This document shows, piece by piece, positions 7,110 to 56,888 of a stretch of 64,000 nucleotides of DNA. The stretch lies in assembly GCA_947184155.2 (NCBI GenBank), contig CAMXCT020001491.1, positions 417,501 through 481,500 on the forward strand, written 5' to 3'. The notes under the pieces are model-generated. The model was not told the DNA's origin. It did no database searches and saw only the letters and a list, made by a program, of their open reading frames with translations. How positions within the stretch are numbered: the first letter of the stretch is position 1; every line of letters starts with the position of its first letter. The position numbers and the translations under genes were made by a program. This DNA comes from Cladocopium goreaui (taxonomy: Eukaryota; Sar; Dinophyceae; Suessiales; Symbiodiniaceae).

Positions 7110-7194
7110 AAACCACCATAAAATCACCATTTATAGTGGGTAAATCACCATTTTCCTATGGTTTTCCACGTTTGACATAACCAGAGGGGTATAC
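7110..7194. mobile_element. Degenerate TACCCTCTGG-family MITE abutting a splice donor
   Basis: One clear arm (CATAACCAGAGGGGTATAC) ends exactly at the 5' end of the intron that follows exon 7195-7289. The other arm is worn. Confidence 0.6.
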
Positions 7195-10100
7195 CCGTCT
7201 CCACCAAGCTGCATCGCGCGAAGGATCTGCATCCTTCACGTTGCTCACAGGCTTCCTGACACTTCTCCAACTCCGTGGTCAACACCATCCTGGTGAAATC
7301 CAACAGAAATCCAGGGAGAAATCCCATCATTTGAAGATACGAAAAAAACACCATTTTATATTATTTTTATATGGTTATCCTGGTGAATAACATAAGAAAT
7401 ACCATATTATAATATAAGAATAATCATTTGATGGTTATGGATGTACTTATACTTATATATATATATGTTTATATCATATTACTATATATCATATTTTTGG
7501 ATGGTTATGGTTATGGATACTTTGGCATTTGCAAATGAAATATAACTATTATATAGTATTATAATTATAACTGATTTAACTTTGAGCATGTGAAAACCAT
7601 CAGCAAATTGGAATCTTCCTACGAGTTCTGGATGGTAGTCCGATGGAATGGAATGTTTCGTCCTGGTTTCTACATCACCCATTCCATACATTTCCCTGCC
7701 CGGAAAACTCTGCAAAAACCGTTTTTCAATGGTGTTGTGCAAACGGCGGAATAAATTTTGGCAATGGCCATGCCAGTTTTTTTGCAATATGGAGTTATTT
7801 TCACGTGTTGTGAAACCGCTGTGTCTGAACATCTGATGCTATGCTGGGCGCATATGGATTTCCTGGTGGTGTTTTGTGTGTTTCAAAACGTCCACAAACG
7901 TCCAGAATCTCCCCACCGAAACCCAGCTGAACTCACCTGAAATGGCCCTGCAACAAGAATAGATGTACCAAACATGGCGGTTGAGCCGCCTGAAAGATAT
8001 ACCCTCTGGCAATTTAACATAACTATGGAAAATCACCATTTTTCATGGGAAAATTCACTATAAATGGTGATTTTCCATAGTTATGTTAAATTACCAGAGG
8101 GTATGTTAGATTATGTTAGAATCATTGATATTAATTTATAACAATCACCCAAAAATAGGAAAAACTACGGATGGTGGCCATCAAGCAAATTCTAAAACCA
8201 CCAACCATAGACACATTGACTGGTTAAATCCGCGTTCTATTCCGAGGCCCTGGCAGACAGGTTTTTTTTTGTCCAGTTTCCACTAAAACTTGCTTGTTTT
8301 CAGGGTCAAACTCAGGATGGTGCCCACTTATGAGTTGGTTTATAAACCCCATGAACTAGTTCGTTATATCTACCATAAACCATAGAATTCAGCCACAGCC
8401 ATATCTCAACTGAACGCTGAAGGGGGGCCCATCGCCAAGTAACCCTAGGCCCTGGCCCTCAACACTGGCCACACCATCCAAACTGGCGTAGCAAAGACCT
8501 GGAGCGCGAAGGATCGGGATTTGAACCGATCTGCTGATGTATACAGATCTTTTGCTGGGATGGTTTGCTACCTAATTACACATCTATTATACGTAGTATA
8601 CATACACACACATACATATATATATAATTAATTAACTAATTAATTATATATACATATATATATGTGTGTGTGTGTGCAGCATTATATACCTATATAGCTA
8701 CAAGACTTTGAGCTGTACTATATATATAGACACCAAATGAAACAAACACATATGAAGCTGTTCATTCCACCAAACATCGGGTTGGTGGTTCCGGCGGATC
8801 TGCGAACAAATCGTCAACTTGAAAATTGTCTGAACAAAGGATGCATAGCCATGAGTTGGTAGGACTACCTCTCTCCATAACCTCTGGAGTGATGGCTGTG
8901 GTTCAATGGTGATGGCATGTGTTCAATTTGATTTTTTTTTTAAGGCAAAACCAAGTGATGGACAACCCAAGCGGAAGGTAGACAGAACGCCTCCAGCTAT
9001 TGTGGTTGTTGCCACTGTTGTCGTTGTCGTCGTTGTTGTCGTTGTCGTCGTTGTTGTCGTTGTCGTCGTTGTGGTGGTACTTGTTGTTCCACAGGCAGTC
9101 TTGAAGTAGGTCTTGCAGTTGCCTAGGTACCATCTGGTTATTTAACATATATAGCCATGGAAACCCCCTTATAAACGGAGGTTTTAATGGGAAAATCATC
9201 TATAAATGGGCCATTTTCCATGGCTATGTTAAATAACCAGAGGGTAACACCGGTAACACCTTGTAGACCCAGAATGCATACGGCACCCGTGGACTGAACG
9301 AAATCTGTCTTTGCGCCCCAGTTTTGAGTTTTGACCCACACATGACCCACAACTGGTGAGTCGTAACAGCCTACAACACCAAGGGGAACACCATGGCTTG
9401 GCTCCCCAAATCTTGAGCCCACTATCCCTCGGCTGAGGCCTGGAAGGAAACAAAAACAAATGGCTTTGCCTATGACTAGGGCACCCTGAAATTTGATCAT
9501 TTGATTTGATGATGTTTGACTTGGCAATTTTATGTGGTATACACCACATTTTCAGACACACCCAAACAATCTTAAATAGTTGGTTATAGCATGATCATGC
9601 ATTATCATGCGTTACAGGTTGGTGGTTTCAACCCCTCTGAAAAATGATGGAGTTCGTCAGTTGGGATGATGAAATTCCCAACATATGGAAAGTCATAAAA
9701 TTCCATGGTTCCAAACCACCAAACAGATTATAATGCATGATCCAACTATAATAACTATATCTTCATGATAAAAATATCCCCCGAAATTCTCCCCATTTTT
9801 CGGGGGGACAGGTGCCCAAGGCGCCGTTCACGCGGACGGCCTCGTTGCCTGTGAGGCTCCGATCCTTCAGGAAGCATCGGTTCCATTGAGGGCCTCAGAA
9901 CGGGATGACTGCTCCAGTCGTCAGGTCGTCAGAACGGGGGATAAAACAATTCTACAATGTGAGGCCCCCCAGTTATAAGTTGGTTTAGATTCGCCCCAGT
10001 AACTAGTTCGTTATAAGTACCATAAACCATAGTTATTGGAGTTATAAACCAACTTAGCTATCTTGGGGGCCTCACATTGTATGAATCTTTATTAATGGGT

Positions 10101-13100: not shown

Positions 13101-16100
13101 GATGATTTGGAGGTACATCAGACATCAGGAAACCTCCACTTGGAAGTTTTTGGGGCAAGGGACGTGGATCAAATACAGGGTAAGGCATCGTGGCAATGTG
13201 AACATCATCGGCGAAAAAAACTAGTTCAATAGGTGAAGGATGACAAGGAGTGTGAAGAATCGTAGTCCTACTATCCATTCATACCAATTTTTCTGGAAAT
13301 TCCGAGGTGAATCAACTGTGGTAATGTTGTTTCCATGTTGAATTGCCAAAAGGGCAGAGGGATCGGGAGGGCCGACTGCTTGATTTTCCATTCCAGCCCA
13401 TATCAAACAACCCTTTCCCATCCTTTCCCCAAGAGTCAGTAACTTGAATCAAACAAATTGTGAAGAAAATCCAAAGAATCTCAATTGGCTCCTGGTCTGC
13501 CCTGTGCCTCATCACAGGCTTTCTCCTCTTCTACTTTGCATGACCTTGGGAGATATCGACATGTGCAACCTGGCGTAGTTATAGTAAGACTATGGCACTA
13601 TGGTTGAAGCAACGTGTAAAGCCAATGGAAAATGAATCACAACTACCCTTGATGGGAAATTTCCCCCCAACTTACCCTTTGGTAACTTCCCATAGAAATG
13701 GAAATCAGCATGTGTGATAAGGTAAAACATCCATAAATCTGGCTGAATCATAAATGTGTGTGGTCTAAATCCCACATAATACATAAATACCATAACAATC
13801 CCATAACTAACTGGTTAATTTCGGAGTGTATGGGATCATCATGACACCCCTTTGCAACCATCATTCCAGTGACGTCAGAGTGAAGTCATTATAATTCATC
13901 CAAATTATATTGAACATCATTAGGGGTTATATACATAGAGGCTTACATGGGATTATTATACCATGATATACACTCACATTGAACATCATGAGGGACTATA
14001 TGTCGAGGTTTATATGGGATTATACCATGATATACCATATATTGAACACCATTAGGGATTATACGTAGATTATTACACTATAAGATACCATGTGTAATAC
14101 TGTGAATGGAAGAATTCCTGCACCAGTTGATGGTTTATCCATTATTTATAGGGTTTCAATCATCCTTTTGGTGGCGCAGGATTTCGCAACCATCCACAGT
14201 ATTAGTCGTGTTTTCATATCATATGATATAATACCATATGTTGATATTTATCATATTTCATAAATACAATCACATGGTATTATGTCGAAATATATTTGCC
14301 ATATGTTGATACACTCATGCTTCTAAACAATGTCATAAACCATCCCCCAGTCGTCACCATAAATAAATGGGTGGTAATATCACCACCATAAATAAATGAG
14401 TATGTAGTACCCTCTAGTAACATAGCTATAGAAAATCACCATTTGGAATCTTGAAATAGGTAAATCCAATAATTATAACTGTAGTATTTTCAATAGCCAT
14501 GTCAAATTACCATATGTTCATTTCTTCCTTAAACCAATCCATTCAGTCCCTTTTCTCCTTCGCTAAAGCACAGCACTCGTCACCGCCCAGGCACTCGTCT
14601 TTCTCCTCTGCCGCCGCTACGCAGCGATGTCCGAAGCTTTCGCCTCGGGACCAAAACAACAAATGCTATGGGTATAGCATGGGTAAACTAACATAACTAT
14701 GGAACATCACCATTTTTCATGTGGGTAAAGCAGCGAACTAAATGGGCCATGGCTTCAATAGCAAACTGATAGTTTACCAGAGCATGGGCAAACCAGCCAT
14801 CATAATCCATCATAATCATAATCCATAATCCATCATAATTTGAATCATAATCCATCAAATTCCATCAAAATCCATCATAATCCATCATAATAGCATCTTT
14901 AGATTATGATGGACCAGTAATAAACCTATTATCCAGCTATCATAACAATGTTCCATCATAATCTATCATATTTCCATATTCTGGATATAGGCCATACTGG
15001 AAGGATAAACAAATGCTTCCCCTGTAGGACATTAAGAACAAGGATTTCAACATGTAAAAAAAACACATGTGAACAAATTGGTGAAATGAACCATCATTTC
15101 ATGGTGTTTATTTGACAGAAATTGAAGCCATTCCAAAATCCCCGTGTGTGGTGCCTACGGGGGGTTGTACCCAAATTTATCCCGGATAAGTTTCTTGGGG
15201 CCAAGCTGTTTTTTCGGAATAAATTTCCATTCCCAAAAAAGGGCACGACCTCCAGGCGTACAACTTTGGGACCATGGGGGCAAACATCTCTGGATAAAGT
15301 TCCAGTGGCCAAGGTCCTGTTTATCCCTTCGCAAGTCTCCAACAAACTCCGCTTCGAGAAACTCCACACTTTTCTTTGGTTGCAACCCCAGTGTCTCTGA
15401 ATATTTTTCCATGGGACAACCCCCCTGAACTTTGAAAATACCAAAGTTGGGGCTGAATAAATTTCCCAGAGGGATATTTTTTTCCGGCACAGGGTCAGGA
15501 AAAGAATCCGGCCAGGGCCAGGACGAACCCGGGTTTCCAAATGTGGAATAGTCATATTATGTTTGCCATTTAATTTCACCCTTTTCGAATAGCTGGAGTC
15601 ATCAGAGTTGGAAATTTCGGAGCATACGACTGGCGACTCCCAGCGAATCCCAGCGACTGCGACACTTTTTTGTTGGACCATCATCCTGGTCACCAGCACC
15701 AGTTGATACCCTCTGGTAATTTAACGTAGCTATTGAAAATGGCCATTTATAGTGGATTTTCCCATTGAAAATTGTGATTTTCCATAGCTATGTTAGTTTA
15801 CCAGAGGGTATCCCATACCCATCTCAATGGTCATTCCAGGAACCGATTCATTGGAGGTACCTACCATATATAAGGCCTATGTAAGGGGATATACACCCAA
15901 AATATGGCCAAACATATGGTACTAACGTACCTCAATTTTAGGAACCTGAAATGGCCAAACATCATCCTGGTCGATATCCCATACCCATCCTTCTAAATCA
16001 AACCATGATGACCAACGTCCCTTGCCATCCAAAGCCAATAAGCCGCGATGTTGCCAAGTCATCCAAGTCACAATAGCGATCACAGCGATTGAAATTTTTC

Positions 16101-17336
16101 GTCAACACCTTGCTACACAATCGGTGATGCCAAATCCCAGCCGCTTTCCGGTAAAGGGTACTTCCCAGAAATGGATGGTTTTTGTTAGGGAAAATCCATC
16201 CATAAATGGATGATGACTGGGGGTACCCCTATGACTTAAGAAACCCCCAATTCTTCAACTGAGCGAAAAACTGAGACTTCTCCCGGCACTTCACTGAAGT
16301 TCCAAAGCTGAAATCAAGTCATGGAACAAAAACACGTGGATCCTGGACCCATCGTCCCGTTTCTTTTTCGGGGGCCACTCATGCGTCGCAAGCCGTATAC
16401 CGAAAAATACCCCTGGGTGAGGATGATTTGTCCCAATAAACCAATTCTACTCTATAACCCCTTCACCCAAACAAAACTCTCATGTGTCAATGATATTCCG
16501 TATTCTAACTTTGGCGAAATCATGGCAAAAAATAATGGCAAAAATCATGGCAAAAAAAAACACGGTGACATCCCCAAAATAATCTTTGTCTGCTAGTATC
16601 ATTTTGCCCTAGTGTTGCCCTTTACCCTCTGCTAAACTAACATAACTATGGAAAATCACCATTTTTAATGGGTAAAACAGCTAGTTATATATAAATTGCC
16701 GTTTTCAATTGCTATGTTAGTTTACCATATGAATTGCCATTATCAATAGCTATGTTAGTTTACCAGCGGGTATTTGGGGGATGATTAGCACCAAGGCGCC
16801 AGTGCTTGACAGTTGCCGCAAGTCTTTCCGTCCACATCGGGCCAGGCATCGAAGTTCGCGCAGCTCAAGGTGTCTGAGTCTACGCGGACTCCTTTGGCGA
16901 TGTCGGCCCAAGTTTTTAAGTTGGTAAACATGTTAGATGGAAAATTAAGCTATATGTAAAATCCAATCCAAAAATATTGTGATGAAATGAAGTTGTTCTA
17001 CATATTTTTGGAGATTCCTATACAGAAGTGGGGTTCAATATATAGATAAATGGGTAAATTAAAACCCTGATTGTAGTTTCGGATCTTGTTGGATCTAGTC
17101 AATCTAGCCATTTTTAAGGGGCCTTTCCTTAAGCCCCAAGCAACCTCTCCCATCTCCAAAAACCGCCAGCAAGTTGCTCGAAGTGAACTGCCTTGCAGCG
17201 AGATTTTCCGAGAGAAACTTGGGGGAAGCCCAAAATCATTACCTGTCAAGTTAAGCATTGCCGTAGTAATCTGAATGAAATTCATCATCGATAATTAAGG
17301 CTTATACTCAGTGGTTTCTAACTAAATTCCACTATA

Positions 17337-17367
<31 letters not shown>

Positions 17368-17368
17368 C

Positions 17369-17406
<38 letters not shown>

Positions 17407-22454: not shown

Positions 22455-25400
22455 TTATTGGCTTGGCGCTTCCGGTGCTGCTTCCGAATATCCCTCGGCG
22501 GCAGCGCTGCCCGCGGCGGCTCCTTGCATGGCCTGTGATGCGACAGTCAACCAGGACCAGGACCACACTGCAACTGGCGAGGATTGGTTGCAAAATGTTG
22601 TAAAGATCCGCTGGGTTTTCTTGAAGTTCCACGAAACTTACTTTCCAATCACGGCTTATGTCATTTGAATCCATGTTTAAACACAGCAAATTACCCTCTG
22701 GTTATTTAACATAGCCATGGAAAATGACCCATTTGTAGATGATTTTCCCATTAAAACCTCCATTTATAAGGGATTTTCCATGGCTATGTTAAATAACCAG
22801 AGGGTATATCAAAAAAACCTCCCAAATCGCCAAATCCCAGGCGAAAATCGGCCATCGCCGCCTGCGCCTTGGCGCGTTCGGCCAGCGCCACCAGCTGCGC
22901 CAACTCGCCACGCGTCTGCTGCAGCAGCTGCTGCAGCCGATCCACGCTGGGCAGCTCTGGCAGCTCTGCTAGGGACTCCTGCGGTGGTGAGACACCCATA
23001 GCACATGTTGTTCGAAGATTCACCATTTTTAATGGGAAAACCATAGGAAAACCATGGGAAAACCCATAGGAAAAACCATAGGAAAACCGGAAAACCATGG
23101 GATAACCATGGGAAAATGAGGATTTACCCTCTGGTAAACATACAAAAAACTGATGGGAAAATCGCCATGCTATTAATGGGAAAATCAACTATTTCTATCA
23201 TTTTCAATAGCTATGTTACATTACCAGGGGGTAAAACTGGTAACTGTCCAGTTCGCACACAGTTCTAGTTTACCAGAGCTTAAATCCCGTACAGTAAACT
23301 CTCCCATCTCAAAAATCCTCATCAAAAATCCGCATGCTTGATAACCATTTACTTGATAATCATTGTTCCAATGATTGGTATCAATGATCATGTTCCAATG
23401 AATTGTCAAAATCGTTTTGGGATACTTTTGCTAATTCCCATCTTTTTGATAATTTCCAATGAATTATCTATCAATAATCTATTTTCCCATTGATCATCAT
23501 CATATTTCCCTCCATTTTCCTATGATTTTCTGCAGGCCTCGCTGGTCTTCTCGCTGAAGATGTCCAAACTTTTGGCGTAGCTGGCGATGGCGTTCCGCAG
23601 ATCGCCTCTCCCGCGTTGCGTCACTTTTCGTTGGGAGAAAACGAAGGATCGCCAAGTTGGGATATGGGATATGGGCATATGATTATTGTTGTTATTATTA
23701 TTATTATTCATATGATTGTTGTATATTTGTGAAAATGGGATATTTATAAGTGATAATATGGGATGTAAATATAGATAGATGAACACCATGGAGAAATAGA
23801 TGGGACATATGATGATGATCAATGGGATTATATGGAAAATAAAGCAAACCATGGATTTGGAGATTTCCTAACATGGGACATCCCTACCACTATAGAGGGG
23901 GAGGGCGGGGGGGACAAAACCAACCTGTCGAATTCCACTTTTTTTTGCTTGGAAACCCTGGGATAGTGATCCACCCCCTCAAATGGAATTGTAAAGTAAC
24001 ATTTCTTAACAAGCCTTGGGCACTGGTTAGCAAATACTTGCTCTTAGCTCCTCCGGAGCTAAGCGCAAGTATGATGACGGCAGCGCAATTTTTGGAGGGA
24101 TGCCATCCCTACACATGTGCTGCTTCAGTCTGACATGTGCTTAGCTCATCCGGAGCTAAGCGCAAGTATTTAATTTTCATCTGCTTGCCAATGACATGGA
24201 ATGATGAGGAATATTGATCATGCAGAAAACATGATTGCAAAAATGGAATTTTAAAATGAAATTTCAGTACGACTCCCCCCCCCCTCAAATTCCATTTTTA
24301 AGAGGGTAGGGATCATGGGACTACCTCCAAATCATCCAAGGCATCCCAAAAAAAACGTTGAGATCACCAAAAAAATACATATCTACGGCCAATGTCAGTA
24401 CAGCAATAATAAACCATCCCCAAATTTACCGTCTGTATGGCTGGTATAAGCCTTCAATCCATAGGCGTGGTTTATGACTTATGCTTTGCTAACATGAAAA
24501 TTCTCATATACTCTATATTCCCCAGATATTCCTATATGTATCATACACCACCGTTGCTGGTTCTGAATGGTCAATACTTAAATGGTTCCTGTCCAAAATA
24601 TTTTGGAACTATCATTTCATCCATTTATATCTCCCATAAACCATAGAATTTACCAGGTTAACGCCATAAACCATGGATATATGGCTTATAGGGATATAAC
24701 ACCATAAAATCACCATTTTTAATAGGTAAATCAACTCTCAAAATGGACCATTTCCAATAGCAAACTGTCAGTTTACCAGAGGCTATTCCCCCAATCAACC
24801 ATAGAATTGGTTATTAACACCATAAACCATAGATATTCTATGGCTAGTTATAGGGAACACATGAAATAACCATGGAGATTCCCCCTTAAAACCATAGAAT
24901 TCACCAAGTTAACACCATAAACACCGTAAATCATGGATCTTCGCCATGGCTTCTAGGGTTCTATCGGATTCTTTCACCATAAACCATGGAGATTCCCCAA
25001 GAAACCACCGGCTGTGGCCTTCCGCCCGAAAGCAGCGCGCCAGGGCCAGGCCACCCAGGGCCAGCGTGCCATGGCGATCGCCGAAGAGACGCTGGCAGAT
25101 CTCCTGTGAACCTCGTCTCCGAACACGCTGGGATGGTGAACTGGATATCAGATGGAAAATCCCTTATAAATAGAGGTTTTAATGGGAAAATCATCTATAA
25201 ATGGGCCATTTTCCACAAATCCATAGTGATTAATGATGGTTAATGATGGTTAATAATAATCTGGTTGGTGGTTTTTCGCCACCCCTCTGAAAAATGATGG
25301 AGTTAAAGTCAGTTGGGATGATGAAATTTCTAATACCCTCTGGTAAATTAACATAGACCCTGGCAGTTGTCGGGGTTGGAAGACTAGTTTCCACTATTTT

Positions 25401-32901: not shown

Positions 32902-33073
32902 TAGTTACATCTACCATAAACCATAGTGAAGCTACTCACTTGTTTCTCATCATTTTCCCTTATGGAGAGGTTGGAGATTGTTTTCCTCGTTGTTGGTGGA
33001 TTTAGGTTCGTGGATTTACTCGATGATGTTACTCTATTATATGCTGGGGAAAAAAAAACTGCCCTTTTGGGAA

Positions 33074-33186
33074 TACCCTCTGGTAAACAAACATAGCTAT
33101 TGAAAATGGCCATAGAAATAGTGGATTTACCCATTAATAGCATGGTGGATCTTTCCCATAGTTATGTAAACCTTTACCAAAGGGTA
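33074..33186. mobile_element. TACCCTCTGG-family MITE
   Basis: TACCCTCTGGTAAACAAACA to ACCTTTACCAAAGGGTA; about 45 nt past the donor of TPR exon 33335-33230. Confidence 0.8.
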
Positions 33187-33229
33187 GATCCGAGTTTTTC
33201 AGGGAAATTGTGCCTGGAATCATCCCTGC

Positions 33230-40857: not shown

Positions 40858-40902
40858 CTGGGTGAATCAAAAGGGAAATGCTGGGTTATATATGTGGTTA
40901 TA

Positions 40903-41410
40903 ACCTCAATGATGGTTAATGATGGTTAATGATGGTTGATGATATGGTTGATGATATGGTTAATGATAATGTTAATGAAATGGTTAATTATATGGTTAAT
41001 GATATGGTTGATGATTGTTAATGAAATGGTTAATTATATGGTTAATGATATGGTTGATGATTGTTAATGACATGGTTAATGATATGGTTAATGATATGTT
41101 AATGATATGGTTAATGATATGGTTAATGATATGGTTAATGATATGGTTAATGATATGGTTAATGATATGGTTAATGATATGGTTAATGATATGGTTAATG
41201 AAATGGTTAATTATATGGTTAATGATATGGTTGATGATTGTTAATGACATGGTTAATGATATGGTTAATGATATGGTTAATGATATGGTTAATGACATGG
41301 TTAATGATATGGTTAATGATATGGTTAATGATATGGTTAATGATATGGTTAATGATATGGTTAAGGATATGGTTAATGATATGGTTAATGATATGGTTAA
41401 TGATATGGTT
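40903..41410. repeat. 12-bp tandem array ATGGTTAATGAT, about 40 units
   Basis: Units of ATGGTTAATGAT with scattered variants (GTTGATGATTGT, GAAATGGTTAATT). A higher-order block is repeated near 40990 and 41205. The 139-140 codon frames across it are artefacts. Confidence 0.92.
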
Positions 41411-41488
41411 TTCCCCAATGATGATTATGGTTAATGATGGTTATTTAATGTTATTAATACCTCTGAAAAACTGATGATTAATGGTTCA

Positions 41489-41688: not shown

Positions 41689-44600
41689 TCACTCGTTAGG
41701 CGTCGGCTGGAAGATGCGGTTCCGAGCTGTGCCTGCAGGCGGTAATGATCCATCAGCGTCATCAATGGCAAGGCTTCATCTGGTTGGTTGCGATCTGGGT
41801 GTGGCCGGTATAGCAACAGACGTGGAGAGGACTTACCACCTTGGCTGAGGATAGCTGTGATGCTGCGATGTCGGGAATCACCCACCAATATCCCAACTTT
41901 CAGGTGTTTCGAGTCAAGAAGGACAATATATGAACCTACGCCATGGACTATGGATTCCAAAGGCCACTCCTTCTTGGAAAACGATATGTGTGTTTTTGCA
42001 ATCTGTCGCATGCTTTGCGCAAATTCCAACATTCAAATCCATAAAAAAAAACTCCGCAGTGGATTCTGCCCAAAAAGCCTTGCACATTTCGCGTATAGTC
42101 AGGGGAGTACATATAGGCCCCCCCGAGGCAGTCTGAGTCTTCACAATGCAGCTGCCATCGCACCACTGGATTTTGCTCATCCTCATCTTGGCAAAGGACA
42201 TGGGCCAATGGAGGGCTGTGATGGCTTCCAGTCATGGAAATTGGGCCTACCTCTCTTAGTTCCACTTCATTCTTCTGGGTAAATTATAATAATTCACTAA
42301 TCTGAAATAAGGCCATTTTGGGATGATTCCCCTTATTAACCATGATGATTGGTGGAAACCATTGATGGAAACCATTGATGAAAAGTGAGGAGAAATCATC
42401 TCATTCTTACCATCAATGACGATTGAAACCACCATGAAAAAAACGTTGAATAACCACTCATATCACCATTGAATAACCATTAATATATAATATATAACCA
42501 TAATATACCATCAATAATACCATCAATAATACCCATTCTCATCTCATTCTTACATGATTTACTTCCACCAAGTTCCAAACAAACCCGAGCATCGTCGAAG
42601 GGGAGTTCCAAACGATGATCCGAGTCTCAGTTGGTCACCTAGAGGAGCTGGATCCCAGCTCCGAAGTTGGGGTTTCACCCCAGACTTTCCCCACCAAAAT
42701 CAACCAACATGAAAAACATGATGAAGATCCTCACATTCATCATGAAGTCGCATGACAACATGAACAAAAAATGAAGCATTTTGGATTTTTTTTAAAAAAA
42801 AAACATCCAGAAATTCTTCAGGCTCTGTCAATTTTTAGATGCCCTCTGGTTATTTAACATAGCCATGGAAAGATCCACCATTTTATAGCTATGTAAACCA
42901 TCTATTTCTATGGGCCATGGCTTCCATGGCTATGTTAGTCATAACCAGATGGTAATGGTGAAGACACCCTCAACACGTATTCCTCCCAGATTGCACCGGG
43001 CGATGCGCCTCAAAGGGTTCACCATCCAGGCTGGACGTTTTGCGGAAGGACGGTGGAGGTTGTGGTGGTCCATAGCTTCCATCGTTCGGCTCCTGTGGGG
43101 TGCTGAGTTTTCCACCTGTTTTTCCCCAAAGCCATGTATTTTTCCCATAGTTCCATAGTTTATCATAGTTTCATATGCCATAGCTATTGTTAGGCTTATC
43201 ATATCCCATTGTTACTGGTTGGTGCTGGTGCATTTTCACCATCTTGAAAAATGATGGAGTGAAAGTCAATGGGAAGGATGACATCCCATATTATGGGAAG
43301 GATGACATCCCATATATGAAATGGAAAATAATCCATTCATCTTTGAAACCACCAACCAGAGAATAAATACATCATAAACACATCAGATCACATCAGCTAC
43401 TTGAACTTCGATGTTGAACAAACTCTTTCGAGTGTGTCAACTGCCGGCACCGGTGCAACTGCGTTCTGAAAAGCGCTGCTCAATGCATGGAGCAAAGACG
43501 GCATGGCTAGATGGGCGTGCTGAAGATCATTCAAAGGGAGATGGATGATGTCAATGCACCCTCTGCTTGTTACCATTTGTTATACCATAACCATGGAAAA
43601 TATGGGAAAATCATGGAAAATCACATTTTTTTATATTTGTTAATAACTGTTAATAGGTACATTGGTGCAGTAACTCATCAAAAGGATATCTCAAGTGTGA
43701 GCCAACCAACAGGTGAGCCAATCAGCGCTTCAAAAGTTGGTCGCCAAACATGACCAGATCGAGCCGCCGTGTTGGCATCCGACTCACCGAGAGTTGTGCT
43801 ACGAAAATTGTGGATGCCAAATTGGCCAACACCAATCAATATGTTAGTATAGCAGTAGTAAATCTATGGTTAAAGAATTGGATGATGGGAAATTTTCACC
43901 GGAAACCCCTATATTTGATGGTAAAAACCCATGGGTTTCCGGTGAAGATTTTCGCAAGAAAACCAATCCATTGATATGGTTATACCGGCTGAAAGGGGAA
44001 GTTGCGATGAATTTCTCTGGGCTGTTGACCGCACCAGGCTGAAGCCAAAAAGAGCGGCTTTGAACCGGTGTTCTGTGAATGTTCGTCCAAGGAAAAGGTA
44101 TCCAAATGATACCCCTGGAAAATGCAAAAAAAAAAAACGAAATTTAAACTCAAAAACTATGGAAAAAAACGAGTCCATACTTTTGCCAAAGTGATGTGCT
44201 CAAGCGGACTTTTGTCGGAAAAAGGTGCGCAGCATCGCGATTCGAAAGGGCGACGCAGGGCGACGCATGGCGACGCGGTCGGCGACGCATGGCGACGCGG
44301 TCGCCGCATCGCCTGTTGAATTGCCACGAGGTCTTCCAAGATTGTCTCACTGCATGTGGCAAGCTTACAATTTAACAAAGCATTTAATCAATGGTCATTT
44401 CATAGGCCCATAGGCCCTCAAAACTAGGCCTTACATTGTGGCAGGTAGCTCCAATTTAGCTGAAATGGCCCCTGATCTTTTTTTTGCATCAGCCTATGAA
44501 AATCGAAAGGGACAGAGATCTTCACCCATGTTCCGGGCCTAAAGCTGTCCTGTGGAGGATCCTTCTTGGTCAGTGGAATCAGATCGCTTCGCAGCGATCA

Positions 44601-45816: not shown

Positions 45817-48800
45817 TCAAATCTTCCGAAGAATCTTCCGATGCCAAGAGGCATAAAGCTCGTTGACACGTTTCTCGATGGCCTTGGGGTACTTCTTCCG
45901 ACCCCCGTGCTTTGCGACATCGAGCTCCTGGCAGAAAGACGCCCGAACAGCAAAGTCGAACTAACCACCGACAGCGAAGCCCATCAAAAAACGTTTCTCT
46001 TTAAGAACATGGGGAAAATCTGGGGAAACTATGGGAAAAAAACTCTATTTTCATAGGGATGTAAAGGGAGAAATTCTGTAGGTTAGACTTCTGCAGACTT
46101 TGATCATGGATTTTGTTCCAAATCCAACAATTCACCATGCCGGAATGTGGCGCTTCTGCTGCTGCTCAGAATCTTCTGAAAAAAAAACCATTTCCTCGAC
46201 AGACATCATTTTTCTTTGGAGGATTAAGCACTACCCTAGCTATGGAAAATCACCATTTTAACAGGGAAATCATCTAGAAATGGTCCATTTTTCATCGCTA
46301 TGTTAGTTTGCTGGTATTTCGTTGCCACGTTATGCCACCAAAAAGAGGAAAAAACAAAATGCTGGGATGTTCAGAACCAAATCGAAATCTATCCAATGCA
46401 GCGCAAGAGGGCGCCAGACTCGGAAAGCCTGACTGAAAATCCCGATAGAAAAGCAAGAAATCTTTCTGAAATACTTCATATGGAAACCCAAAAGTATGGA
46501 AATCCAGAAAAGTGGGATATTCATAGTGATTTAATAGCCATTATAGTGGGATTATAGTAAAGATATGGAAATCCTGACTGATTTTGTCGATCTTTCTGGG
46601 GTTGACTTCAATTCTTGCCGAAGGCCTCCCATGTCAAACCATGATATCTTAAACCATGTATTAAGTAACCATAAACCATGAGAAAATCCCATTTAAATAT
46701 ATTTAAATTCATTAAGATTCCATTAACTCCCCACATTAACCATCCATAAAATCCCTACTACGCCATAAATCTCTACTAACTGCTCGGTTTTCCCATGAAG
46801 CACCATTACAACTATGTATAAATCCCTTTAAATCCCATATAGATTCCCTTAAATCCCATGAAGATCCATTGAAATCCCATTAAAATCCCATTATGTAATA
46901 CCCCATTAAAATCCCATTAAATTAAAATCCCACTAAACCCCCTTAAATCCCATTAAAATCCCACTAACCCCCCTTAAATTCCCATCTGTTGGTCTTCCTT
47001 CGTGTCAACACCGCCGCCCCTCCCCGCCGCACCTCCCCGAAGTTCAAGGCCACGGCTGCGCGCTGCGCGCTGCGCGACTCGCCCACGGAAGCCTTGGCAT
47101 CCTCGGGGGGTGGCACCAACCTGGCCGAGGATAGTTATCGCCTATGGGATTTTAATAGTCATAGGCGATAACTATCATTAATAGTGGGAGATTTATAGTG
47201 ATATGGCTATGATATGTGGTTTAATAGTGATTATTAATAGTGACTTAATAGCCATTATTAGTGAGATTTAATGGTGGGATTATTAATTTGGGATATTTAT
47301 AGTGATTTAATAGCCATTATTTAATATGGGATATCAATGGATATCAATAGCTATGGGATATTTTAAAACCTATAAATGGAATTGTAGGCATTTGGGAACG
47401 GTAATGGTGGCCAGTCGCAGTTGCAAAGTCAACCCCAAATCAGTCGCACACGATGCCATCATGGTGAAGGTAGGACATCTGACAAGGTCAGTGACAAAAT
47501 CAACCATGATGCCACAACCATTCCGCGGATTTATTGGTGAAATTCCTGTTTTGTGGCTTCTAGGGGCAGCCACTTATGCCATTCTCATCGCGAGCCATAC
47601 CAAATACCACAGTCCAACTGAAGACAGCAGCTGACCTCTGGGGCGCACGCAGTTACTGCCGTTGCTTAACATCAATTACATATGGGTCAAATTGCCTGGA
47701 CAACGTTTTCATCCAAGTTTTTGTCAAAGTTTCGTATCAATGTGTTCACCAGCTCATCCTATCCCATAGGACCATAGGATCCGTTAAACGGTGCTGCTAG
47801 AAAAATGGTAACATTTATCATGGATCCCATCAATATACCCCAGTCATGTTAGCATATATACCATAATTACATGGATCCGTCATGGCTTATGATATGGTTA
47901 TATATATATATATGGGTTTTCATGATAGTATAAGCCATTTTAAAATGGATAGTACTTATAGTACCATGGTATTATACTATATATATAATTATTATATGGT
48001 AGTATATGATAGCACCATGGATCCTATGGCTATTGATACACCAATTTAGCCACGTGCCTGTGGGTCCACATCGCCAAGGGCATAAAATGCGTCTTTGGCC
48101 CATCCCCACGTGCTGCCTCGGCGCCCCTTAACTTGGAGCATCAAATTGCCAAACACCGTAGAAATACCATAGAAATACCATAGAAATACCATAGAAATAC
48201 CATAGAAAGCCACAATTTGTGTGGGGGACTTTGTTGTTGGCCTGATGCTTTGACATGTTTGCATGAGATTGAAAGGGTCAACGCACAAATATCCCAGGTC
48301 CTGGGTGGAAAAATCTGCCAAGATCTCCCAATGTCATGCAATGTTTATCTCTCAATCGGGATGCTTAACATGTATCCCTGTTTCGTCAACATCTTGCGAT
48401 CTAACAAGCATTGCTTTGGTTGTGTGTTTGGCCACAACTCATCACAGGCATCCCATTACATTCACCCCGAATTGATCTCGGATGCCCCGATAACCAAAAG
48501 AACAGGTCCCCCCCCAAAAAAGATAGAAACATATAGAAACCAGATTCCAAATCCCAAAGATGTCGAGATGATGTTTAAGCTTTGCATTCTATCCAAAACT
48601 TCGGGTTGCCCCTCACCCTTCACATCCCTTCACCCATCCCTCCATGTGGCCACGATTGGCCGTGCCCGTGCCATGGCTGCCACGCACCGTGCCTTCTGCG
48701 CCAAGAGCAGGAAGAGACCCACTGAGGATTCATCGAACTTGGCGGGCGCGAAACGTGAAGTCGCTTCCAACCTGAATGGTGATGCCCACGATCTTGGAGA

Positions 48801-51800
48801 ATCCCCGAACTAATCAACCAACAGATGTTTAGCAGCCACTGCTCAAATGGCTGGGGTTTTAAATGGTTTTTAAATGGTTTTAAAAGGTTTTAATGGGACG
48901 TACCCAATAATTACAATAATACTTACTTGACCTTAAACCCAATGATTGATCTTGATCTAACCACACTTTGAAGGATAACCAATGTGGTAAACCCAATGTC
49001 ATAAACCTTCCCCAATACCAAAGAAATGGGATTCGAAACCCTCCAAAGTTGGAGCTTTATTGGAATTACCACGGTTTACCGTCAATTCTCCCGTTCTTTT
49101 GGGCCCATTTTGAGCCGGTCCCCAGCATAGCAGGGCCTGCGATCTCTGCCACCCGAAGGTGCCACCCAGAAAATGTGACCTGACAGGTTCGATGGATCGA
49201 CGGAGCGACTGGCATCTGATCGACTCGCGTCGTAAAGTGAGAGTGAATTGAATTAATGATGGTTAATGATGGTTAATGATGGTTATTAACCCCTCTGAAA
49301 AACTGATGATTAATGGTTAACTGATTGGTGGTTGACCTACCCCTCTGAAAAATGATGGAGTGAAAGTCAGTTGGGATTATGAAATTCCCAATATATGGAA
49401 AATAAATTTCCATGGTTCCAAACCACCAACCATCCACCCTTGTCATTTCTTGAACATACAGAATGAACATGTCGAAATGTAACGTTCATAAACAATCATC
49501 AACACATGTTCATAGCTGTAAAATGTTGTAAAGTTCATGAACACGAGTCCGAGTTTATGTCTGTTTAATTCAATTCACTCCTTGAAAATGCCAAACAGTG
49601 TCTATTCATGTCTACTCCATGTTTGTTTGGCCAGGTATAGCCTGAGTGAATCAGAGCCCCTAACCCATTTCAGCATGCTGAATGGTTATCGAAATCATGC
49701 TTAAATGGCATCTCTTTCTTGCTTCAAAACCGCAAAAATCAACGACACAGATCAGATTCTTGCTGGCCAAACCTGGAAAATTTCATGGCTTCAACCAAGG
49801 CATGAGATCTGGAAAATCTTCCAGCAGTTCCATGACTTTTCCAGCCATTGCCATGGCCATGACACCTCCTTCTTTCATGAGACGTTGCATCTCCGTGACT
49901 GTCCTTGGTTTGCTTCCGACAAAGAGACCCGGAGATATCTGCCCCAACAAAATATGGCAAAAATATGAACCTACTGTGGATGGGCCAGCGAAATCCTGCA
50001 CCACCAAAAGGATGGTTGCAACCCTATAATGGGATAAACCATGAACTGGCGCAGGATTTCGCAACCATCCACAGTATCTCAAGAAATCGTGGGAAAACTA
50101 AGAGCTTGGGATCTTCACTTGTGAATGGCCATGATGAGGATCCAGAACTATCTGGGTTGTTGGCATGGAGATTCCTCAAAAAAATGGATACCTAATGGAT
50201 ACCTAATTGAAAGTAGTGAAACATTTTACGATATTTTGGTGATTCTTTGAAACCAAGTTTTTTATGGTTACTAAAGTCAACTGCATCGTTTCTACCTTCT
50301 GACCTCGGCGCCAACATGTTCCAGCTCCACGGTCCTACCTTGATTGAGGCTTATAAATCTGCCCATCTTCTCCACAGTGCATGTTTGGAAGAAGATGCTT
50401 TGATATACTAGACACATCAAAAATCATCAAAACACATGCCTAAGCAGATCCAAACACAGATTCCTAACCCGCAAGGTCGCATTTTTCAGGATCTGGACAT
50501 CTGGACCCTTGGAATCCCCAAGGGATTTTGCCAAATCCCAGCTTTTTCGCCAGGCGTCTTCTTGTTTCTGTCCGCCTTGGCTTCTTGCTCTTCTTCACTA
50601 CCTGCTCAGCATAGCTCAGCAGATCAGCTCAGACCTCTGGAGGATATGCAGGTAATGGTGGATATCAATGCTCCACTATGCCCCTGGACACATCCCACCT
50701 TCATCCAAGTACTTCTTGGAGTAGATCGATAGCAAGTATCGCCCTTTACCTCGGCGAGCCGAGGCTAAGGCTAAGGCCTGTAAGATATGCAGCAACACAA
50801 CTGATTGTTGACGGCCGAACATGTGGCCTACAGTATTTAAAGCATGTTTTTTGGGATTCCAAGGTGCCTATCTAAGTTAATTATGACATGTCATGACAAT
50901 AAAGATCAGAATCAGCATTCATCATCAACACTTTAGGACTGTTGAAGACTCCCAGAAACGCCGAAAATACCCTCTGGTAAACTAACGTAACTATGGAAAG
51001 ATCCACCATTTTATAGCTGGGTAAATCCACTATTTCTATGGCCATTTTCAATAGCTACGTTAGTCATTACCAGAGGGTAACTGAAATATAGAGGCATAGA
51101 GGATTATAGAGGTATAATTTAAACATATCTATAAATAAATGAACATGATCTTGGCAGCCGGTCGCTGCCTTTTTCCACCAAGAGACTGAAGGGAATGGCT
51201 AAGCGATCAGTGGTGACCTGCTACCAGGCGCTTGGAAGTCATGGAGAGATTGATGACAGATGATGACAGAATACCTACTGTGGGTAAAACAATGTCATAA
51301 ACCTCCCATATATTGGTATGTTTTTAAATATACCACTGGACCACCTATTTTTTCTGGGGGACAGTTTATATGGCATTGTTTTACCCACATTAATATCATT
51401 AATATCCATGTTGCCATTAATATCCATTAATATCCAGTGGTGAATGGGATTTTTCTGGGATTGACTAACCACTCGTAACAATGGCATTGTGTTACCCACA
51501 TGATAGGATTTCTATGGATTTCTGGATTTCTTCATATGAAAGAAACTCACAAAGAAAGTATTGATGATCCCGTCCCATGTGGGCTCAGCCCACTGGTTAT
51601 GATCATTTCACATCTCAACTCTTGTATATGGTGATTCTACTATAAAACCATAGGAAAATGGTGATTTAACTACTATAAATGGTGAATTTATGGTGGTTTA
51701 GTGGTGATCTAATGGGATTTACCCTCTGGTAATGACTAACAGTAATCCATATGGATCCCTATGGTGATTTTCCATAGGTTTAAGAATGGGTTAACAATGG

Positions 51801-54800
51801 TGAATCATGGGATGATATGGGATTTACCCTCTGGTAATGACTAACAGTTTGCGACATAGAAAATGGCCATAGAAACGTCGTGAGTTTTGCCATTAATAGC
51901 ATGGTGATTTTCCATAGTTATGTAATTATATGTTTACCAGAGGGCCAGAGGGTATTTAAAAAGAAACTTGGAGCTCCCATTCCGCAACTGCCTTGTGTCC
52001 TGCCACAAAAATGCATTTCTCTGCAAGCTCTTCGTAGCCTTCCCGCTGCAGCAGCAAACTCAACACCTGTGCTGGGCGCCGTGGGACCTGTGGGAACACC
52101 AGAATAATTATCATAGACATTCTGGTGCCCCCAATAAATTCGGACATTTTCTGGTTGGTGGTTTTTCGCCACCCCGCTGAAAAATGATGGAGTTCGTCAA
52201 TGGGAAGGATGACATCCCATATATGGAAAATAAAAGCCATGTTCCAGTCACCACCAATCAGTTTTATGATGTGCATCCCCCAAAATCTGGTGCAATCCCT
52301 ACCTTTTTTTTCCAACGCTGAACGAGAATAGCGGACTTGAACCACCTGCTAAACCCTGCGCACCAAAAACCTCTGACTGAAATCAGGTTATGTTGATCTG
52401 TTCGGAGGTCGTTATAACCCCTACTAACCATCATTCCAGTGATGTCGCGCCGTGAGGTCGTTATGATATGTTATGATTATTCAGAAATATATTGAACATC
52501 ATTAGGGATTATATACATAGAGGCTTATATGGGATGATTATACCATGATATACACTTACATTACTGAATGGCATGAAAACAAGCGGATGTTTTTTCCCCC
52601 TCCCTGGGTGACTTAGACAGGCCATCCTGTGAGTTGGAACTACCCTACTCAACTCATGCCATTGACAAATCATAAACTGCGCTTGGAACAAATATGAAGA
52701 AAATATGAAGAAAATCCACATAAAGTAAAACCGATATTTTAGCACCACACTTTTCTCACATCTTTTATTCCCCATGATCCATCCCAACCATCCCAAGCAT
52801 CCCAAGCATCCCAACCATCCTCTCCACTCTCCAGTCTGCACCTGTGGATCCGCTTCGGTCTGGTGATTGGCCATCAAGACCACGTTCTCGCCCTTCCCCA
52901 GGATCTCCTTGATGCGTTGCACATTTTCTAAGCCCTGGCGCCAATATGGAGCCGATGGAGGTGGGCCCATGGCTTTTTGGATGGTTGGGAGGGGGAGGGA
53001 AGAGGATGGAAGAGGCAAAGTGACTATATGTTCACTATAGACTATACTATAAATGTTTTTTGGAGTTGTTTAAACACGACATATGTTTGGATGTTTTTGC
53101 AGATTCTTCCCGTCTATTATGCCTGGAATTGAAGCAGTCGTCGCATTTTTTCTGGATTCAGCTGAATCATTTGAGGTGGATGCTGGGAACCGCACCGGTT
53201 TTGGTTTTTGCAGAGTTCGCCTGTGGGGGGCTAGACTGCCGTTCTGTCTAAAGGCAACCAGGCAACCCTTCCAAAATAACGCATCAATTTCCAAACAACG
53301 GAATGGTGTTGGGTCAAAACCCAACCCTGGTGAACCTCAAAGTAGCCGCTAGGTGCGGATGTTCCTCTGCCCAGTCATGATCCATCATGATCCAATATAT
53401 AGCTATTCAATCCACACAATCTTTATACCTTTGCATCCCCCATTACACTCCCTGTTGCAAGGACCCTAGGAGTATGAGGGGATGTTTTATCCAGTTTAAC
53501 CATGTTGATCGTGCACCATATATATATATATAACTATATATCACTCCCTGATCTATCCCAATTTCAACCCCAGAATTAAAATCTAATGATATACGAATTT
53601 CATCCCCATCATACCTCCATTTTTTCCATCAATAAACCACACAAATTCTGGCTCCTCTGGTGATCAACCATGGCCTGTCCGAAAATACGACCATTTCGGG
53701 GATGTCCCAGCTCGTCATGTTTGATTACCCAAAAATACCTCCATGAATGGCAACATCTCCAGTAAACCAATATAACCAGGAAATATCTCCAATAAGCCCC
53801 GTACTCCTGGTGTATCCTGGTAAGTCCTGGTATCCCAGGTTGCTGCACCGCTGCAGCGCTGCACCTCCACTCGAGCATGGCGCCATTTGATCATGGAACG
53901 AAAGAAGTCGTTGCCCCAGGCGTAGAAGTCCAACTCGGGGCCTGGCAGTTGGGGAAAATTCGCCAACCACTTCTGGGTGGGTCCCTATGAAGCATGGCTA
54001 TCCGCGAAAAAAATGGTGGATTTGGATTTCCATATAGAATACCGATGGAAAATGCTGATGTTGAAAGATATTGAACAAACTCTACACTTGAGTCTTGAGT
54101 AGTAATTTTTAGGAGGATTCCACGTATCATCTATGGAATCTATGGTGACTTCGTTGTGAGGTCGCTGAAAAAAAGCCCACCATCCCCAATGCTCCCAGGA
54201 TACACAGCTGGGATGTGTTTCAAGGGAACTTGTAGAATGAGGAAAAAATCAAACTGGTGTCATAATAGGGTGAGGAAAAAAAGGATCATATAACATATAT
54301 ATATATATGCATATATATATGCATATATATATATGTATATATATATATATATGTATTAATATCATTATTGTTATTATATATTCATATATCATACATTTAC
54401 ATTTATCGTATCTACGGAGCCAATGCATTACCAAACATCGCCGAGAAAAGAAAGCACTTCAGCGTTAGAAAGACACCCACTTCGCCGTGAACGGACCTCG
54501 AATGGCTTGATGGTAGGGCTGGAAATCGTAGGGCTTCTCAGTGAAGATGGAATCCAAAAGCAAGGACAAGGTGGTGTTCCTTAGAGCAGTGTGAATGAAA
54601 GAAATCCCAACCTATCATTCCATGGAAAATCCTGGTTTTTAGAACGGGATTCCCCGGACTCTTGGATGATTGTAATCCCCAATATATGAAGCTGGTTGGT
54701 GGTTTTTCGCCACCCCTCTGAAAAATATGACTTCGTCAGTTGGGATTATGACATTCCCAATATATGGAAAGTCATATAAAATTCCATGGTTCCAAACCAC

Positions 54801-56888
54801 CAACCAGATATCCATTAGCTCATTAATATCCATTAATCCATTAATATCCCAATGGATGGAAAAATAAAATTCATGTTCCAAAACCACCAAACAGGAAGGG
54901 GTTGGGGTGGATCGCAGCCACTGCGATGGTGAACTTTATACAGTCCAGGGATCTGGGTGGGTACCTGACCAGTGACGGGAGCTGCCTCCCAGAAAAAGTG
55001 ATGTCCTGCAGAATCAGTTCAAGAATGTGGCATGTATGTGCGTAAATGTATAATATAATTATATATTCATATATCATACAGATAATCACAACCACCCACC
55101 TCTTAGTTGTTTGAAGTTGTGAAAAACCCTCCAACTCCTAAAGATCCACAACTTGGTATGACGGCGCTCTGAACTGCAGGTTAACACACATTGAAAACAT
55201 TTAAAACATGTTGGAACACATTAAAACATATCAGTTATTGAAACATGTAAAGAAGAATTATCAAGACGTATAGACTAGAGACCTCCAAACCATAATAGAT
55301 CTATCAGCTCCAAGGCGCAAGAGGTTTCGGTACTGGTGCACCGGCGTGCGGGCAATGACATGACTCCTGGTCGGGTGGAAGGTCTTCACCAAAAAGAACG
55401 AAGCACTGCCATGTCTGGTGTGAAATAGGCCTTTTGATGATGTTGAGTTTGAGGTTGATGTTGAGGTTGAGGTTGAGGTTGATGATGATGATGATGATGA
55501 TGAAGATGATGAAGATGATGAAGATGATGAAGATGATGATGAATGATGATGGAGGACTTGTCTGGACATATATATTAATCATACATGTTCAGCTCCTCAT
55601 GTAGCCAGGCAGAAAGGATTTCAAGGTCGATGTGGAGCCAGAGCCACTCCTGGGCCCGGCGAATTCATCGTTTTTTTGTGATGGAAATTGGCCAAAGAAA
55701 AGTCCATGGACTTGGAGAAAAACAAAAAAAAACGATGGAGAAACTTAAGGTATTTTAAGGGACTGATTTATTATACCAATACATCTGATGCTAATGAGAA
55801 TCACTTCATACTCAAGAATTACATTCAACATCTCAAAACCAACTAATTATCGTTGACCGCAGAAAAGATCGAAGAACTTCATAAGTTGCCACTATTTAAT
55901 AGTTTGGTTTGGTTTTTACTCACTTCTACTATCTATCAAACTATTGGGCTTGCTCCAACTCAAAAATGACCTACAGGATGGTTCATGTTTGTTCGTTTAT
56001 AAACCCCATGAATTTAATTACTGCAGCTATATACATCTAGCATAAACCATAGTCTACCCTCTGGTAAACGTTTACATAACTATGGAAAATCACCATTTTT
56101 AATGGGAAAACTCACTATAAATCACCATTTTTCCTGGGAAAACTCCATATTGAGGGTAATTCAGTCACAGCCATATCTCGACGCTGAAGCAGGCCCCATC
56201 CGGTAGCCATCCGGCACCTGGAGCTGTGCTTCGAGAGCTCTTTCGCCTTCACCTTGGCATCCTCCGCCAACTCCTTCGGCGGTGACTCAACAGGGGGGTT
56301 GGGAAAACCAACAACGGGGAAAACCATCAGCTGATTGGATCTTATTGAATATGTTTGCTGGTTATTGCTGGTTGGTGGTCTTAACATGTTTTAAGTTTTA
56401 ACCATCTTGGAAAATGATGGAGTTAGTCAATGGGTTTCGGATGACATCCCATATATGAAATGGGAAATAAAAATTCATGTTTGAAACCACCAACCAGGAT
56501 CTTATTGGAGATGTTTGGCAAATTATGATTCATACAAATGAACGATGAACATACTAGTGATATTTTTTGGGGGGTGGTATACAGTATTAGTAGCGTCTTA
56601 TCGTCTTCAATTTACATGAGTATGTCATGATATGACCACCAAAACCTTATTGGGCAAAATCTCAAAATCCCAAGAAGATGTTCAAAAGAGCGACAGCCCT
56701 TGGAGTTTTCTAGGAAAAATAGACCCTCGAAAACAACGACGAAGGCCTCAAGAAAGCTTTTTGAATGTTTCGGATGCGGATCTATCCCCGTGATATCGCC
56801 ATACTTACTAAACCGTCCTTGGTGATGGAGGCAATGCGCACGAAACGGTAAGGTGCCGTGACCAAAGCGCCTAAATTGCCCACCTCAG
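45817..56888 (-). CDS. ATS1: Plastid-type glycerol-3-phosphate 1-O-acyltransferase, 17 exons
   Basis: Predicted soluble acyltransferase that moves an acyl group from acyl-ACP to glycerol-3-phosphate, the first step of plastid glycerolipid synthesis. Exons in coding order are 56888-56809, 56285-56218, 55414-55309, 55005-54965, 54579-54497, 53941-53865, 52934-52842, 52066-51992, 51217-51169, 50743-50699, 50601-50559, 49903-49866, 49179-49137, 48771-48693, 48116-48058, 47120-47033 and 45960-45817. The frame closes across all 16 introns and ends at TGA 45819-45817, giving about 402 residues from the first exon seen. ATS1-family landmarks appear in order: FQPYHQAIRGP, the HX4D box in NHQTEADP (exon 52934-52842), FVAGHK, SIYSKKYLDE, WVAPSGGRDR (exon 49179-49137), KFDESSV, THFMPLAMWTH, LVPPPE and a basic C-terminus. 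By my reading donors are nine GT, six GC and one GA. The N-terminus, including targeting presequence, is not resolved: the first exon begins in phase 1. The two most 5' exons are less like the family than the rest. Exon 51217-51169 could instead end at 51179. Confidence 0.87.
46231..46316. mobile_element. Degenerate TACCCTCTGG-family MITE
   Basis: TACCCTAGCTATGGAAAATC to ATGTTAGTTTGCTGGTA. Confidence 0.5.
47768..47886. mobile_element. GGATCCGTCATGG inverted-repeat element, uninterrupted
   Basis: GGATCCGTTAAACGGTGCTG to CATGGATCCGTCATGG. It serves as the unoccupied counterpart of the nested copy at 1857-2102. Confidence 0.6.
49321..49433. mobile_element. CTGGTTGGTGG-family element
   Basis: CTGATTGGTGGTTGACCTAC to CAAACCACCAACCAT. 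Confidence 0.7.
49972..50076. mobile_element. TACTGTGGATGG-family element, near-perfect palindrome
   Basis: TACTGTGGATGG at the left is inverted as CCATCCACAGTA at the right; CGAAATCCTGCACCA pairs with GGCGCAGGATTTCG. Confidence 0.75.
50968..51079. mobile_element. TACCCTCTGG-family MITE
   Basis: TACCCTCTGGTAAACTAACG to TAGTCATTACCAGAGGGTA; about 90 nt past the donor of acyltransferase exon 51217-51169. Confidence 0.85.
51719..51780. mobile_element. Half TACCCTCTGG-family MITE
   Basis: Only the left arm TACCCTCTGGTAATGACTAA and some core remain, 45 bp before a full copy. Confidence 0.55.
51825..51953. mobile_element. TACCCTCTGG-family MITE
   Basis: TACCCTCTGGTAATGACTAA to GTTTACCAGAGGGCCAGAGG, the right end carrying a short CCAGAGGG duplication. 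It starts 38 nt past the GC donor of exon 52066-51992. Confidence 0.8.
52151..52261. mobile_element. CTGGTTGGTGG-family element
   Basis: CTGGTTGGTGGTTTTTCGCC to CAGTCACCACCAATCAG. Confidence 0.7.
54692..54807. mobile_element. CTGGTTGGTGG-family element
   Basis: CTGGTTGGTGGTTTTTCGCC to CCAAACCACCAACCAG; good full copy. Confidence 0.78.
55438..55552. repeat. (GATGAA/GTTGAG)n repeat beside an acyltransferase exon
   Basis: TTGAGGTTGA units grade into GATGATGAA units, ending about 25 nt upstream of the acceptor for exon 55414-55309. Confidence 0.75.
56055..56158. mobile_element. TACCCTCTGG-family MITE, worn right end
   Basis: TACCCTCTGGTAAACGTTTA is intact; the right end is reduced to TTGAGGGTA. 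It lies 59 nt past the donor of exon 56285-56218. Confidence 0.65.
56368..56497. mobile_element. CTGGTTGGTGG-family element
   Basis: CTGGTTGGTGGTCTTAACAT to TTGAAACCACCAACCAG. Confidence 0.72.

Follow-up and report, generated by a model that had tools for sequence, protein, structure and literature searches.

Copies of a hairpin MITE crowd behind predicted 5' splice sites in the dinoflagellate Cladocopium goreaui

A short hairpin element of Cladocopium goreaui, here called F1, occurs in the first 60 nt behind predicted 5' splice sites in a 2.6 to 3.8 fold excess over random placement, this range spanning two null models. The donor-side bias is real and, among nine repeat families, it is clear for F1 only, the others being small. 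The initial annotation of a 64,000-nt stretch of this genome, hereafter the window (G000:C1491:417501-481500, from a 1.17-Gb assembly with 6202 contigs), had described such donor-side crowding of MITEs, and this observation was partly confirmed by our analysis. The explanation that we prefer, at somewhat less than even confidence, is that F1 entered pre-existing introns, landing beside exons on both sides, and that copies on the acceptor side were subsequently lost.

The F1 element and its genomic setting

F1, which is nearly palindromic and about 107 nt long, has no visible coding sequence and is present in high copy number. A well-preserved copy, used as the first genome query (30596..30712, plus strand, ~107 nt), folds as RNA into a near-perfect 107-nt hairpin (-50.9 kcal/mol, z -10.6). 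Copies were searched by nhmmer (E 1e-3) with a profile built from 30 genome copies. The terminal inverted repeats were visible in 30 copies and both ends were recognised in 90. The bases adjoining CCCTCTGG were T in 94% and A in 94% of cases (225 flanks), which is a TA target duplication, and after this TA the element starts with CCCTCTGGTAA. With its TA duplication, inverted termini, length of ~107 nt, hairpin, high copy number and non-coding nature, F1 resembles Stowaway-like and Tc1/mariner MITEs. The terminal motif of Stowaway elements is CTCCCTCC, from which the terminus of F1 differs. Eight DDE_3 matches were found in the genome, and mobilisation of F1 by a Tc1/mariner transposase is putative. 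The exact 22-base MITE pattern had no match in IMG/VR, where records near the window's own genome are possibly excluded.

The profile identified 41 F1 copies in the 64-kb window and 12 in ~101 kb of kinesin loci and, therefore, the window is F1-rich. When 20 kb were added on each side of the window (104 kb altogether), 66 copies were found. Of two duplicated dynein genes (L069 and L066), one contains an F1 copy at a site that is empty in the other; the right flanks match, and between the left flanks there are a single substitution and an additional base. The simplest reading is that F1 was inserted as a unit after the duplication. These similar genes lie on different contigs, have long pieces ~87-98% identical and differ by intronic MITEs, which makes the pair useful for dating insertions. 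Kilobase-sized introns interrupt the dynein genes in L065 and L066; L068 (G000:C1852:78001-85000), by contrast, is a stop-free dynein heavy-chain stretch, 2332 codons long, and possibly a retrocopy.

F1 copies directly adjoin each other in eight pairs, three in the window and the rest in other loci:

16620-16775, adjoining F1 pair, window
26030-26213, adjoining F1 pair, window
29020-29200, adjoining F1 pair, window
L032 2045-2272, adjoining F1 pair
L065 7675-7889, adjoining F1 pair
L069 977-1181, adjoining F1 pair
L063 688-942, adjoining F1 pair
L072 300-496, adjoining F1 pair

The paired copies in L065 and L069 share one TA (GGGTACCC), as if one copy was nested at the duplicated TA of the other. 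At least eight further short repeat families, several of them with inverted ends such as GGTTGGTGGTTT...AAACCACCAACC, were seen in the window and its neighbours, for example:

54692-54807, further short repeat family
9959-10075, further short repeat family
4885-4988, further short repeat family

Tandem arrays are present as well. About thirteen 97-nt units occupy 17620-18847, with one inverted unit downstream (19026-19177), and long arrays of 9-nt and 12-nt units are found at 4153-4587 and 40875-41476; array 4153-4587 reads as poly-leucine on the minus strand.

The genes recognisable in the window lie on the minus strand:

48651..53941, minus strand, part of a plastid-type glycerol-3-phosphate acyltransferase (GPAT) gene (homology and gene finder)
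~22-36.5 kb, minus strand, TPR gene (TPR match from the exon at 36.3 kb)
~20.6 kb to -1.4 kb, minus strand, gene whose endonuclease/exonuclease/phosphatase and PAN-like signals are weak (neither reaches its Pfam cut-off)

The spliced 161-aa GPAT peptide matches PDB 1k30/1iuq with E ~4e-28. Exon 3 of this gene ends at 51992 with the donor AAG|GCAGTT and exon 4, according to homology, ends near 51170; the model is incomplete, being ~7 residues short of the solved structures at one join without donor-side F1. In the TPR gene, the match of the joined peptide comes from the 36.3-kb exon and not from exon 26495-26581. The PAN-like match (PAN_4, E 0.0013, below cut-off) stems from exon 7195-7289. This gene, with endonuclease/exonuclease/phosphatase-like and Cys-rich PAN-like exons, is tandemly duplicated (window 0-20.6 kb and L031/L034), the relative being situated further left of the window gene. 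An 'Ntox43' match of one short peptide was taken as chance (E 0.046, below cut-off). Of the dinoflagellate spliced leader, 172 exact copies were found genome-wide and none in the 85 loci searched for exact matches, and a 16-base part of it had no match with up to two mismatches in the window. The genome-wide copies and the many non-GT donors of the exon models point to a core dinoflagellate.

Distribution of F1 around predicted exons

Exons were predicted with our own small gene finder, whose codon usage was taken from long open frames of kinesin and dynein loci of the same genome and blended with a generic amino-acid composition. Unsupervised training of the finder was discarded because both strands fitted almost equally well. 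The 104 kb, together with three dynein loci, served to retrain the splice profiles, and training and test sequence overlap in part. The splice sites are predictions, and a predicted donor may deviate by tens of bases from the true one. Donors other than GT (GC, GA) often occur in the predicted models. GPAT exon 4 was missed and therefore the finder has false negatives. A second, simpler exon score was applied to 315 kb of non-duplicate sequence containing 163 F1 copies and 276 exons at score at least 10. Outside the 104 kb the analysis covered a small number of loci, picked by their similarity to an F1 query or by their kinesin or dynein domains. Duplicates (L004, L016, L018, L025, L028, L048, L050 and L069) were dropped in the later counts, and L001 (inside the window) and L068 (training only) were excluded throughout. 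One poly-leucine repeat 'exon' and the exon-MITE pairs that overlap (negative distance) were also dropped; the latter were mostly donor cases, so that the donor count is lowered by their removal.

The initial annotation had listed ten donors with a MITE close downstream, and the profile found an F1 copy at each of the ten. Exons were predicted on the minus strand at nine of these places, and the tenth (51169), missed by the finder, is backed by GPAT homology. The exact donor positions fared less uniformly: 51992 is backed by protein homology, and several others differ by 8-49 nt from the predicted donors. The copies, together with a further donor-side copy at 14404..14514 and the acceptor-side counter-example of the initial annotation, are:

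7116..7188, minus strand, degenerate F1 of low score, 0-5 nt after the donor of exon 7195-7289 (nhmmer; exon predicted)
9125..9249, minus strand, F1, 1-37 nt after donor 9251-9287 (profile; donor 9251 or 9287)
14404..14514, minus strand, F1, ~43 nt downstream of exon 14558-14643 (profile; donor predicted)
16729..16775, minus strand, partial F1 beside donor 16792 or 16817 (profile and predicted exon)
22690..22808, minus strand, F1 (GGTTATTT variant), 22-54 nt downstream of the exon that spans 22831 or 22862 to 22978 (finder donor 22831)
26330..26462, minus strand, degenerate F1 of low score, 32 nt after the donor of exon 26495-26581 (TPR gene by place)
28216..28334, minus strand, F1 upstream of exon 28104-28173, 42 nt from its acceptor (counter-example)
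33069..33188, minus strand, F1, 41 nt after the donor of exon 33230-33335 (profile and predicted exon)
42838..42957, minus strand, F1, 10-40 nt downstream of the exon near 42968/42997-43089 (finder donor 42968 or 42983)
50966..51082, minus strand, F1, ~87 nt downstream of GPAT exon 4, ~51208-51170 (exon placed by eye and homology)
51823..51945, minus strand, F1, 38-46 nt after GPAT exon 3 (donor 51992; finder donors 51968 or 51983)
56051..56135, minus strand, F1, 33-82 nt downstream of an exon with its donor at 56218 or 56169 (profile and predicted exon)

The exon at 9.25-9.37 kb was weakly scored by the gene finder, and the GPAT gene has an F1 copy at most 90 nt from the donor in two introns. 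The scarcity of copies near acceptors that had also been claimed was not sustained, as six minus-strand acceptors with a MITE within 60 nt were obtained at score at least 8, five of them in the window:

Exons ending 14643, 25127, 28173, 28967 and 46213, minus strand, MITE at most 60 nt from the acceptor (score at least 8)

In the 104 kb, 17 of 90 exons with score at least 6 were followed by a MITE no more than 100 nt from the donor (with an overlap in one case), against a mean of 6.6 and a 97.5% point of 11 under random placement, and 5 of the 90 had one within 100 nt before the acceptor. Plus-strand predictions in the same sequence (n=75, mostly false) gave 6 on the donor and 11 on the acceptor side.

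The excess over random placement on our own exon models was confirmed in the 315 kb. At score at least 10 and 0-60 nt, which were chosen after seeing the data for score cuts of 4-15 and widths of 60, 100 and 150 nt, 29 donor-side and 9 acceptor-side exon-MITE pairs were counted. Decoys placed at TA sites (300 runs) yielded 7.7 on the donor side, with a maximum of 15, and 6.5 on the acceptor side (observed 9, P 0.23); length-matched random decoys (1000 runs) yielded 10.9 and 11.2, respectively, the donor maximum being 23. Outside the window the donor:acceptor ratio was 19:6, vs 5.6:4.9 for TA decoys and 7.7:8.1 for length-matched ones (P 0.001). Donor distances in successive 20-nt bins numbered 6, 10, 13, 1, 3, 3 and 3, the excess ending at 60 nt, and with wider limits at the same score the ratio weakened to 33:14 (100 nt) and 40:19 (150 nt). 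The full gene finder gave 20:9 within 150 nt on the other loci, two duplicate loci included. The eight other repeat families, when pooled, showed 11:16 at 0-60 nt (Fisher vs F1, p 0.005). Other repeats, when counted as plain intervals, gave 12:12.

At 60-150 nt the further repeat families were commoner on the acceptor than on the donor side (12:23 donor:acceptor, score at least 10).

The possibility that predicted exons end near MITEs for technical reasons was considered. The donor signals are weak, their exact positions may be tens of nt out, and part of the training of the splice profiles used the 104 kb themselves. However, random and TA decoys were near symmetric when passed through the same exon models, and the bias in the 104 kb lies on the gene strand (12:4 donor:acceptor, vs 2:1 on the other strand). 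In addition, exons supported by homology also show it: those of GPAT at 38 and 87 nt, that of kinesin L063 at 40 nt (its acceptor being also only 43 nt away) and that of dynein L065 at ~80-90 nt. An artefact of the exon models is thus considered improbable.

TA is scarcer in the last 50 nt before acceptors (3.6%) than in the first 50 nt behind donors (5.8%). That the donor excess stems from TA density was rejected on the ground that this density is lower, not higher, just after donors. Motif counts over the whole genome added no support for the donor bias, in what is a weak test. CAGGT pointing towards the MITE was found 2772 times at 5-35 nt before an intact MITE end vs 2802 times in the mirror position, without asymmetry, a comparison of little power because acceptors also match CAGG and donors carry little sequence. 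AGGTRAGT was mildly asymmetric (78 vs 52, p 0.014), about 12 of the 78 cases sharing AGGTGAGTGAA(A/T), apparently another repeat.

Relative age of F1 and the introns

One of the two readings offered by the initial annotation is that the elements created the introns, in the manner of introners; the MITE would then have supplied or recruited the 5' splice site. Introners are reported from dinoflagellates (PMC9860276 and PMC11453091), the predicted donor GT of exon 7195 abuts the MITE, and in the terminal repeats of F1 there are strings that resemble a donor (CTG|GTAAAC) and an acceptor (TTTACCAG|A). In about 9 loci the gene finder called exon ends inside the MITE end, at its own GGTAAAC, and F1 terminal repeats may thus be occasionally used as splice sites.

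Against this origin of the introns, the distances between donor and MITE vary from 0 to ~60 nt and the stubs between them are, by eye, dissimilar; among the 33 donor cases within 100 nt the distances spread over 10-96 nt. The ends of the element do not coincide with splice sites, the introns continue beyond the MITE and F1 brings its own TA duplication. In kinesin L063, an intron of ~205 nt consists of ~40 nt, the MITE and 43 nt, and the peptides of its two exons match the kinesin profile at 245-263 and 263-294, directly next to each other (245-294 when joined); as the peptides are continuous on the profile, the flanks within the intron are not lost exon sequence. Similarly, at the two GPAT joins with donor-side F1, after exons 3 and 4, no residues are lost relative to 1k30/1iuq, and there are 4 extra ones after exon 4. 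Finally, the ESFGH-TSDMLCTC intron is common to both tandem relatives, and the donor-near copy (14404..14514) is found only in the window gene, the relative having another F1 copy deeper in that intron. Judged from these sequence comparisons, which cover few cases, intron creation by F1 appears disfavoured, and we regard it as very unlikely.

F1 shares with the introners of Symbiodinium microadriaticum and other dinoflagellates the condition of inverted-repeat elements in introns. As described in PMC9860276 and PMC11453091, introner insertion makes the intron, with splice sites coming from the element or from the duplication, which is of 4 bp in S. microadriaticum. F1, unlike them, lies inside older introns, at variable distance and with a 2-bp TA duplication. 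The introner elements of Amoebophrya (PMC7789003) also have inverted repeats able to form hairpins in introns; unlike in F1, these repeats pair the intron ends, and direct repeats lie over the exon/intron borders.

Proposed landing, loss and retention beside splice sites

The alternative offered by the initial annotation, that the elements are tolerated or selected near donors, fits better than intron creation, with the reservation that tolerance alone predicts no excess. Plain tolerance would imply random insertion followed by loss near acceptors and in exons, as in mammalian introns. There, according to PMC3088655, a bias of donor over acceptor near exons is known, transposable elements being commoner near donors than near acceptors at short range and under-represented near exons. 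F1 is like the mammalian elements in the first respect and unlike them in being over-represented after donors. Tolerance predicts at most the random level at donors, whereas 29 pairs were observed vs 7.7, and the other repeat families pooled lack donor bias. Tolerance by itself is hence an unlikely explanation, and an excess of this size needs a landing bias or positive retention beyond it.

Copy age was considered next to these data. As young copies we took 40 close matches to a query, a set therefore chosen by similarity. At score at least 8 they gave 6 on the donor side (null 2.6) and 5 on the acceptor side (null 1.7), and the 57 other copies outside the 104 kb gave 12 (null 3.8) and 2 (null 3.2); the difference between 6:5 and 12:2 was not significant (Fisher p 0.18). 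Young and other copies stood at 6:3 vs 9:1 with score at least 10, and at 12:6 vs 15:4 with score at least 6. Near-donor copies scored lower in one test on the 104 kb (52 vs 68, p 0.034), and a stricter test showed no difference there (p 0.14) nor in the other loci (p 0.88). The F1 copy present in only one of the two duplicated dynein genes lies 33 nt before a predicted acceptor, so that landing on the acceptor side most likely occurs. The comparison of young with other copies suggests landing beside exons and then loss at acceptors.

According to the explanation that we prefer, F1 would be a high-copy, non-autonomous, TA-targeting hairpin MITE, Tc1/mariner- or Stowaway-like, of a core dinoflagellate, which was probably inserted into introns that predate it. 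New copies would land preferentially in intron DNA beside exons, on both sides. Those near acceptors would then be lost, as the small numbers above would indicate, presumably because 110 nt is more than the branch-point/acceptor region can accommodate. An insert some 10 nt away would be tolerated by the donor signal, which in this genome is very short (G|G and then T, C or A), and the outcome would be the donor-side zone of F1 copies.

Two further explanations are given a low, although appreciable, probability. Firstly, donor-side copies might be kept as an aid to splicing, the hairpin or its CTG|GTAAAC supporting a weak upstream donor or hiding competitors. The clear donor excess in F1 alone among nine families, the others being small, the sharp 60-nt zone, the hairpin (z -10.6), the GGTAAAC in the terminal repeat and the approximately 9 loci with exon ends called there are consistent with this role. 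However, the bias is already seen in young copies, the orientation of the 33 donor-side copies is mixed (11 sense, 8 antisense, 14 unclear), and in GPAT exon 3 there is a stop codon between the donor and the MITE. Secondly, and with a similarly small likelihood, F1 might be guided to the first 60 nt behind 5' splice sites, or be quickly kept there, for example via the splicing or transcription machinery.

In the titles and abstract openings of a mostly open-access literature, no report of a donor-enriched MITE family in dinoflagellates was found. If true, the donor-side position of F1 would reveal a novel target preference or else selection favouring hairpins where introns begin, and this in a lineage known for its introners and its loose splice sites. 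Dinoflagellate genomes and transcriptomes already in existence allow either possibility to be tested. Targeting of intron starts would, if true, give a transposon with a possible splicing role in a genome of minimal donor signals. The case of F1 also separates elements merely sitting in introns from elements making introns.
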